From Alistipes senegalensis (GTDB taxonomy: Bacteria; Pseudomonadota; Gammaproteobacteria; Burkholderiales; Burkholderiaceae_D), in assembly GCA_023664945.1 (NCBI GenBank), contig JAMPER010000001.1, forward strand, positions 308,942 through 372,941: a DNA stretch of 64,000 bases, written 5' to 3'. The notes under the pieces were generated by a model. It was not told the DNA's origin and did no database searches. It worked only from the letters and a program-made list of their open reading frames with translations. The position numbers and the translations under genes were made by a program. Of the stretch, positions 26,994 through 28,690 are shown piece after piece. The stretch's first letter is position 1; each line of letters opens with the position of its first letter.

Positions 26994-27863
26994 TCAGGCG
27001 GTATCTTCCAAAAAAGGCATGCTTTCCTGTCCGGCGCTTTCGCCGGGCCTGCCGCCGGGTTTTAACCCTGTGAAATCAAAATGGTTTTGATCCAGCAAAT
27101 GGGAGGGGACGATGGAGGAGAGGGCGGAAAAGATGTTCTCCAGCCTGCCGGGGAACTGTTTTTCCCATTCCTGCATGAGCGCTTTTATCCGGGCACGCTC
27201 CTGGTTGACGTAAGGCCCGCAGAAGTTGCAGGGGATGAGCGGGAATTGCCGCATGGCAGCATATCGCGCCAGGTCTTTTTCCCGGGCATAGGCCAGCGGG
27301 CGGATAACGATGTGCCTGCCGTCGTCTGTGCGCAGCTTGGGTGGCATGCTTTTCAGTTTGGCCCCGAAGAACAGGTTGAGAAAAAAGGTTTCGATGATGT
27401 CGTCCCGGTGGTGCCCCAGGGCGATTTTGGTCGCGCCCAGTTCGGAGGCGACACGGTACAGGACGCCCCTTCTTAACCGTGCGCACAAAGAGCAGCCGGG
27501 TTTGCCTTCCGGGATCAGTTTTTTGACGATGCTGTAGGTGTCTTCTTCCTCGATGTGGTACGGAATGCCTCTTTCCTTGAGGTATTGCGGCAGGATACCG
27601 CCCGGAAAGCCCGGCTGTTTCTGGTTGACGTGGACGGCAATGAGCCCGAAATCAACCGGGGCGCGGGATTTTAGCGCAAGCAGGATATCCAGCAGGCAGA
27701 AGCTGTCTTTTCCGCCGGAGAGGCACACCATGACTTTATCGCCTGCTTCGATCATGCCAAAGTCGCCGATGGCCTGGCCTGCCTGCCGGCAAAGGCGCTT
27801 GTTCAGCTTGTTGTTTTCAAATCCGGTTTTGGCATAGGCGCGCCGGGTCATTGCTTTTGTCAT
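26994..27863 (-). CDS. ttcA: tRNA 2-thiocytidine(32) synthetase TtcA
   Basis: TtcA thiolates cytidine 32 of certain tRNAs using ATP and an iron-sulfur cluster. The 289-residue protein has the PP-loop [13 protein letters not shown] near residue 48 and two cysteine pairs ([12 protein letters not shown] and IPCNFCGPY) that bind the [4Fe-4S] cluster. [16 protein letters not shown] is the family's central block. The ATG at 27863 overlaps the folB stop in ATGA; a second in-frame ATG at 27851 is possible. Confidence 0.96.
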
Positions 27864-28273
27864 GGCCGGGGAAGAGATGCGCAGTCAGGTTTGATATGGA
27901 ACACTTCCACACCGATGCTTTCGGCATTTTCGTAGGCTTCCGGTTTTTCTGTCGCCACCCGCACGGCCCTGACTGCCGGGTGGGACAACAACCGGGCGGC
28001 CAGGGTATCGCAGAAGGTTTCCTGGAGATTGATATGCCCCCGGGAAAGCAGGCTGTTGACGGCTTCCAGGATAAAGCTGTAATCCACGACTTCGGCCAGC
28101 CTGTCGTTTGACGGCGTTGAGGCGGACAAGGGGATATAGACATCCACATTGACAACGAGGCGCTGGGCGGCCTGTTTTTCATGGCCGTAAGCGCCGATGC
28201 GGGCCGATAACGTGTAATTGCGCAGAAAAATGCGGCGGCAGTCTGCCAGCCGGGGATCAAGAAGCGGGTGCAT
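27860..28273 (-). CDS. folB: Dihydroneopterin aldolase family (FolB)
   Basis: FolB cleaves dihydroneopterin to 6-hydroxymethyl-dihydropterin in folate synthesis. The 137-residue protein shows [20 protein letters not shown], which corresponds to the family's start (substrate-binding GxxxxE/K region), the [31 protein letters not shown] block, and [21 protein letters not shown] with the catalytic Lys region. It is translationally coupled to ttcA by a 4-base ATGA overlap. The N-terminus is about 15 residues longer than in typical FolB. Confidence 0.9.
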
Positions 28274-28456: not shown

Positions 28457-28482
28457 TGACCCTTAATGCGTATTAACGGACA
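28457..28482. repeat. Palindromic site 1, imperfect 11-bp arms
   Basis: Arms TGACCCTTAAT and ATTAACGGACA around GCGT. The right arm is identical to that of site 2 and the left arm differs at two positions, so this is a half-degenerate copy. Both sites are followed by TTAA. It looks like an operator for a dimeric or tetrameric DNA-binding protein; the regulator is unknown. Confidence 0.8.
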
Positions 28483-28520
28483 TTAAAATGCTCGTAACCC
28501 CTTGTTTGAAAACAGGTTTA

Positions 28521-28527
28521 CCCCCCC
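28521..28527 (+). repeat. Run of seven C residues
   Basis: A C7 tract between the two palindromes, about 190 bases upstream of the autotransporter start and close to a T6-G-T7 stretch. Homopolymers of this kind upstream of surface-protein genes can change length by slippage and alter expression; here that is only a possibility, since the promoter position is not known. Confidence 0.5.
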
Positions 28528-28664
28528 GCACCATTTTTTGTTTTTTTAATGCTTCGTGAAAGGAAAAAAGTGTTTTCCCCGGCTTGATAAGTGATGCCCG
28601 CTCTGTTACTCTTGTTGCAGGCATTTGTCCTTCTTTTGGAGACGATGTTTTTGATGGCAATTTG

Positions 28665-28690
28665 TGTCCGTTAATACGCATTAACGGACA
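28665..28690. repeat. Palindromic site 2, perfect 11-bp arms
   Basis: A perfect inverted repeat, TGTCCGTTAAT and ATTAACGGACA around ACGC, ending 22 bases before the autotransporter ATG and just upstream of its ribosome-binding site. At this position bound protein would block transcription or early elongation, and in RNA the arms would form an 11-bp hairpin next to the ribosome-binding site. The centre is 208 bp from the centre of site 1, close to 20 helical turns, a spacing that would allow DNA looping. Confidence 0.85.

Follow-up and report, generated by a model that had tools for sequence, protein, structure and literature searches.

The window, by which we mean the whole 64-kb stretch of DNA analysed here, belongs to the genus Oxalobacter, which we take to be betaproteobacterial, and carries an autotransporter gene preceded by two palindromes (Table 1). 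The earlier note had described these as a 26-bp pair, and the pair is real: its coordinates, the 11-bp arms, the start-to-start distance of 208 bp and the 22 bases between the end of site 2 and the autotransporter ATG (28713) were all reproduced. Site 1 is, as the note also stated, an imperfect copy whose right arm, ATTAACGGACA, is identical to that of site 2; two of its arm pairs are mismatched. Searched at zero mismatches on both strands of the 64 kb, this arm gave three occurrences, every one inside one of the two sites. The claim that such a pair exceeds chance likewise stands: a search for palindrome pairs with reverse-complementary cores 100-400 bp apart returned one pair for the window, whereas five base-shuffled versions returned none. 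On the folB side of the segment between the sites lie the FolB gene and a PP-loop gene, presumably TtcA-like.

Table 1. Features around the two palindromes, with positions in the window.
Feature	Position	Strand	Description
Left crossover site (site 1)	28457..28482	.	TGACCCTTAAT-GCGT-ATTAACGGACA; core 28468-28471; 2 mismatched arm pairs
Right crossover site (site 2)	28665..28690	.	TGTCCGTTAAT-ACGC-ATTAACGGACA; core 28676-28679; perfect 11-bp inverted repeat
Predicted invertible segment, core to core	28468..28679	.	Predicted from the site family, the matched cores and the flipped porin copy
IHF-type box TAACCCCTTGTTT	28495..28507	+	1 mismatch relative to YAANNNNTTGATW; lies 13 bases inward from the left site; orientation marker
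Putative promoter TTGATA-N17-TACTCT with TG extended -10	28584..28612	+	Directed at the autotransporter (ON); standard scan negative
Autotransporter, 725 aa	28713..30890	+	PF03797, TIGR01414; faced by the putative promoter in this orientation
FolB-like gene (PF02152)	27860..28273	-	183 bases left of site 1; ahead of the promoter if the segment is flipped

Across the 1.93-Mb genome that contains the window (G000), a pattern search allowing up to three mismatches returned four pairs with matched cores, located at the autotransporter of the window, two porin genes and one 354-aa gene without a Pfam or NCBIfam match, together with seven further matches, all of them single and at three mismatches. 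The gene at the first locus of the porin A/B pair matches Pfam Porin_4; the second porin gene is partly masked, and its start is nearly identical to that of the first. The two porin loci (L024:4721-4943 and L025:4551-4773) have identical invertible segments with the same core, so that recombination between them is conceivable, and the segments at other loci differ in sequence.

The family was then followed in a genus sample of 13 genomes (G000-G012), including the metagenome-assembled O. formigenes NALB_7813_14 (G007) and O. paraformigenes HOxBLS (G011). At up to two mismatches, CCGTTAATNNNNATTAACGG matched eight times in G000, five in G007, 13 in G011, three in G010, twice in each of G005, G003 and G006 and once in G004, with no match in G001, G002, G008, G009 and G012; the two matches of G003 are 430 kb apart, and those of G006 are on different contigs. 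At three mismatches, the six genomes bearing the recombinase described below gave 75 matches versus 34 for a backward-pattern control, and the other seven gave 37 versus 45. The excess is clear in G011 (38 versus 8), G000 (11 versus 6) and G007 (10 versus 6), and the counts are not clearly above the control in G004 (5 versus 7), G005 (4 versus 2) and G010 (7 versus 5).

Twenty pairs from five Oxalobacter genomes (four in G000, one in G007, 11 in G011, three in G010 and one in G005), selected for a matched 4-bp core, were carried forward; their sites are palindromes of about 24 bp, with a spacing of 147-215 bp within a pair. Nine of the 20 lie beside autotransporter or porin genes according to tool results (the window, both porins, G11_474, 596, 418, 529 and 633, and G10_C55), and six more do so by the look of the protein start or repeats alone (G11_623, 662 and 620, G5_C2, G10_C51 and G10_C4), the proteins at G11_623 and G5_C2 having given, when scanned, no match or a weak match to an unrelated low-complexity family. 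The remaining five comprise the 354-aa gene, a 279-aa gene without a family match (G7_C37), a heptose-kinase-type operon (G11_1264) and two loci with no assigned target (G11_C1_165 and G11_526). In O. paraformigenes, two further sites of this type (core GTTC/GAAC) form a perfect inverted pair 1007 bp apart with ORFs between them (G011:C2:1144317-1145343, L145), and may either bound an invertible segment of greater length or belong to a more extensive inverted repeat.

A scan of a contig database for TCCGTTAATNNNNATTAACGGA gave 30 stretches, five of them from Oxalobacter; these and one IMG/VR match (31 stretches) were tested for matched-core pairs, and four contained such pairs, two being Oxalobacter stretches with this motif and two (L105, L107) having unrelated sequences. 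Six Bacteroidota records (L082, L091, L096, L097, L098 and L101, from Algoriella, Empedobacter and Faecalibacter) each contain the exact 22-base pattern in a single stretch, where it is unpaired. The pattern is also present in five cyanobacterial records, contigs and a plasmid, three of which have two stretches each (L080, L081, L089, L099, L100, L106, L107 and L108).

Tyrosine recombinases need identical bases in the overlap; strand exchange requires matched cores, whereas an operator does not. For 32 anchor sites at 22 loci, a partner within 100-330 bp was picked on arm similarity with the core excluded, and the partner core proved to be the reverse complement of the anchor core for 26 of the 32 anchors and at 18 of the 22 loci, with many different cores represented and a chance of 1/256 for each. 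Eighteen loci thus have the inverted site pair with identical overlap bases that is expected of an inverton, which favours crossover sites over operators. A binomial calculation on 18 of 19 gives 8e-43, a rough guide only, because three of the four loci that failed were left out of it and relatedness among loci was disregarded. The reverse complementarity of the spacers GCGT and ACGC, pointed out previously for the window, is meaningful, and core bases co-vary as pairs across loci. All 20 forwarded pairs also match at 6 bp, which is informative only for TAACCG/CGGTTA, TACTCG/CGAGTA and TACCTG/CAGGTA, whose outer bases are not T/A, and matching persists where arms have diverged. Of the three anchors at G011:418, two were paired with a third site or with one another, again with an identical core.

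The four non-matching loci are G007:C11, where a run of N follows, G007:C20, at a contig end, G007:C31 and G004:C18. G007:C31 (L065:2845-2868) is a solo perfect palindrome with the self-complementary core GCGC, and no partner was found nearby. G004:C18 (L078:2436-2634) has two site-like palindromes 175 bp apart whose cores, ACGG and CATC, do not match; an exact reverse-complement copy of one of the two palindromes lies at the end of another contig (G004:C1:24-43), an arrangement that perhaps reflects an assembly break or exchange between loci. As for the diversity of cores, those of the 11 O. paraformigenes loci all differ at 6 bp, but two loci have ACTC/GAGT in common at 4 bp; because eleven random cores would often all differ, selection cannot be argued from this distinctness alone. 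In G000, the core GCGT is common to three of the four loci.

One segment of the family was found in both orientations. The contig end G007:C20 shares synteny with the left-hand flank of the porin B locus of G000, next to genes that by their look are lipoprotein-like and RelA/SpoT-like, and past the core it continues as the far end of the porin B segment in reverse (94% over 51 bp). It aligns with G000 flipped in silico at a score of 269 (169/228 identical) versus 233 (158/228) for the unflipped sequence. Moreover, its site, ATCCGTTAAT-GCGT-ATTAACGGAC, is a hybrid that joins the left arm of the first porin B site to a right arm derived from the second, which is the product expected from a crossover inside the core. 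The two orientations come from two sister species (G007 and G000), and the flipped one is read from a single contig end, which extends 32 bases beyond the site, in a metagenome-assembled genome. At G007:C11, the counterpart of porin A by synteny, the sequence is unflipped as far as its run of N, and among the 13 genus genomes no inverted counterpart of the window segment was found.

The segments also have a polarity. In 16 of 20 segments, or in 14 of 18 when two near copies are set aside, an IHF-type box resembling YAANNNNTTGATW, presumably the IHF consensus, lies 12-14 bases in from one of the sites (offsets of 11-15 allowed); in 500 first-order Markov resamplings, the number of segments with the box at this place averaged 0.26 and never exceeded three. 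An extended -10 (TGnTAnnnT) is present on the same strand as the box, at a depth of over 60 bases, for 11 of the 16 boxed segments and anywhere on the other strand for one (C9); both motifs had been spotted in these same sequences before their enrichment was tested. Four segments lack the box in the set place, five boxed segments lack an extended -10 on the box strand, and a sigma-70 scan of the window segment called no promoter. IhfA and IhfB of G000 both score above NCBIfam cut-offs. When orientation is read from the box, two of the 20 copies are ON (the window and G5_C2, the latter called from the box alone), 12 are OFF and six are without assignment. Both G000 porin copies are OFF, as are all seven assigned loci of O. 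paraformigenes (474, 596, 418, 529, 662, 633 and 620), and G11_596 precedes the closest homologue of the window autotransporter (55% identity).

A candidate enzyme is provided by a family of Xer-like tyrosine recombinases of 330-364 aa, with eight genes in the genus sample: one each in G000 (at G000:C8:10738-11739, outside the window), G004, G005, G007 and G011, and three in G010, alongside two short fragments. PF00589 was found in the four members scanned, one of which also has an N-terminal SAM-like domain above the Pfam cut-off, and all eight have an open frame and keep the R, K, H-x-x-R, H and Y positions that we take to be the catalytic residues. In the other seven genomes of the genus, five of which are only 62-87% complete, the best matches to the family reached 25-60 bits versus 241-751 in the carriers, and 25-60 bits is the level at which XerC and XerD genes also match. 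Presence of the enzyme in six of six versus none of seven genomes gives 0.0006 in Fisher's test, with kinship ignored. Matched-core pairs occur in five of the six enzyme-bearing genomes, G004 having the enzyme without a matched pair. In a sample of the taxonomic family, 6 of 195 genomes carry the recombinase at E 1e-40 or better, and all six are Oxalobacter. Its nearest plasmid relatives, among the best 15 of 3400, come from Staphylococcus, Streptococcus and Lactobacillaceae (42-46% identity over 69-77%), and the annotation around two of those listed contains no surface gene.

Half of the recombinase genes (G007:C37 and G010:C51, C55 and C4) adjoin a switch; in the stretches searched in G000, G011, G004 and G005, no switch was found beside the recombinase. 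At the three G010 loci (L079, L076 and L173), the switch lies between the recombinase gene and an autotransporter-like gene transcribed away (with Pfam support at C55 only), and at C51 and C4 the box polarity has the putative promoter directed at the recombinase. The other tyrosine recombinases of G000 (12 PF00589 matches, one below the cut-off) were considered as well: they fall into other sequence groups, 10 of the 11 above the cut-off having been compared, and two, of C10 and C8, have no match to the seeds. G000 also has one resolvase-family gene. Serine invertases have a 2-bp overlap, so matching over 4-6 core bases is better suited to a tyrosine enzyme, and a serine invertase was set aside.

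Judging from the sequences, we hold it highly probable (roughly 0.93) that the two palindromes serve as inverted crossover sites at which a dedicated recombinase flips an invertible promoter (inverton) in a site-specific manner, and a phase-variation switch is the most economical account of the locus. We infer which enzyme acts, as well as IHF binding, promoter activity and phase-variable expression. A dedicated Xer-like tyrosine recombinase would bind the arms of about 10 bp at both sites, exchange strands in the central 6 bp or so (TGCGTA/TACGCA) and thereby flip about 210 bp, with IHF probably bending the DNA at the box 12-14 bases inside one site and helping synapse. In the orientation of the window, a single outward promoter would read through site 2 into the autotransporter gene (ON), and in the flipped orientation it would be directed at the folB side (OFF); that facing the FolB and PP-loop genes matters to the cell is a guess. 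The G000 enzyme family is predicted to run the four switches of the window genome and the eleven of O. paraformigenes.

It is very unlikely that the palindromes are instead an operator pair, on which a dimeric transcription factor loops the 208 bp and represses or activates the autotransporter. Such a factor would suit the perfect dyad of site 2, its place just before the gene and the link to surface genes, but operators have no need of the matched, locus-specific cores seen at 18 of 22 loci, and the model leaves unexplained both the flipped segment with its hybrid site and a recombinase family that accompanies the sites and adjoins them in four of eight cases. Of the dedicated, DNA-looping regulator suggested by the earlier note, the dedicated DNA-binding protein is likely to survive, whereas looping between operators sits poorly with the core co-variation, the flipped segment and the recombinase family; the segment probably does loop, as the synapse of the recombination reaction. 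The accompanying remark on about 20 helical turns agrees with the spacing of 208 bp but does not extend to the family, in which spacings of 147-215 bp divided by 10.5 are not whole turns throughout. The same note's suspicion of a repeat family was borne out in the form of a small family linked to surface genes. That the pair marks the ends of a small non-autonomous mobile element, or a dispersed palindromic (REP-like) repeat, has a close to negligible chance: several copies per genome and the identical segments of the porin copies would be in keeping with it, but only four pairs exist in 1.93 Mb, three of them before surface genes, rather than dozens, the internal box is in its set place in 16 of 20 segments, and segments elsewhere differ in sequence.

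A further account overlaps with the inverton and accepts the palindromes as real recombination sites, yet sees them mainly as relics or as sites for exchange between loci rather than for promoter flipping. The shared GCGT cores of three G000 loci would permit recombination between loci, 12 of the 14 assigned copies are OFF, and solo and unmatched sites exist. We nevertheless consider this account unlikely, as all eight recombinase genes retain an open frame and the catalytic residues, cores are still matched where arms have diverged, and one flipped segment was seen.

If the palindromes are invertons, a broader proposal, to which we give an even chance, is that one recombinase runs a bank of switches (in O. 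paraformigenes, eleven switches to one gene of the family) through shared arms and private 6-bp cores, each switch flipping only with its own partner, so that cells sample combinations of adhesins, porins and envelope-sugar genes, and that in G010 one promoter serves either adhesin or enzyme. Oxalobacter is an oxalate-degrading gut commensal studied for kidney-stone prevention, and its cultures and inocula would, if this is true, be mixtures of surface types. In addition, the locus-varying matched cores would then amount to a naturally occurring panel of crossover sites, some compatible with each other and some not, for a single recombinase.

Among known systems, fimS of Escherichia coli is similarly a short invertible promoter segment upstream of surface-structure genes and is served by tyrosine recombinases (here a candidate). 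FimB and FimE are smaller than the Oxalobacter enzymes of 330-364 aa. In the available portion of one account, fimS is 314 bp long with 9-bp repeats, one operon and the enzymes FimB/FimE, and IHF is essential, binding at one site next to the left repeat and at another within the element (PMC9993118). The Oxalobacter sites, unlike these, are palindromes of about 24 bp, 147-215 bp apart, with up to eleven pairs per genome. Against NCBIfam models of tyrosine-type DNA invertases, four Oxalobacter recombinases scored 20-38 bits, below cut-offs of 221-222. The best NCBIfam matches of these four are XerA or XerC models at 105-125 bits, though far under the cut-offs of 220-335 bits, and the best solved structures for the G000 protein are XerC-like, XerA and XerD chains, yet G000 has separate XerC- and XerD-like genes.

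The prediction of one enzyme for many switches is shared with Mpi, a serine recombinase, and with RecV. Both Mpi in Bacteroides fragilis and RecV in Clostridioides difficile invert several upstream segments, so that the population varies, according to the accessible part of PMC7241687. The Oxalobacter switches differ from these in sharing arms while differing in core, and in their betaproteobacterial host. A 2025 survey of hCom2 gut invertons, in its available portion, grouped invertons by repeat motif, placed them near surface and invertase genes and described one Akkermansia inverton near two autotransporter-domain proteins; Oxalobacter is absent from its main text as available (PMC11892184). 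No account of phase variation or invertible promoters in Oxalobacter was found in the accessible literature, which is weak evidence of absence given that subscription journals lie mostly outside its coverage. The plan itself is already known, being a fimS-type switch combined with the one-enzyme-many-switches arrangement of Mpi and RecV; what is possibly new is a bank in which the switches have arms in common but locus-specific cores, together with a switch that an adhesin and the enzyme would share.
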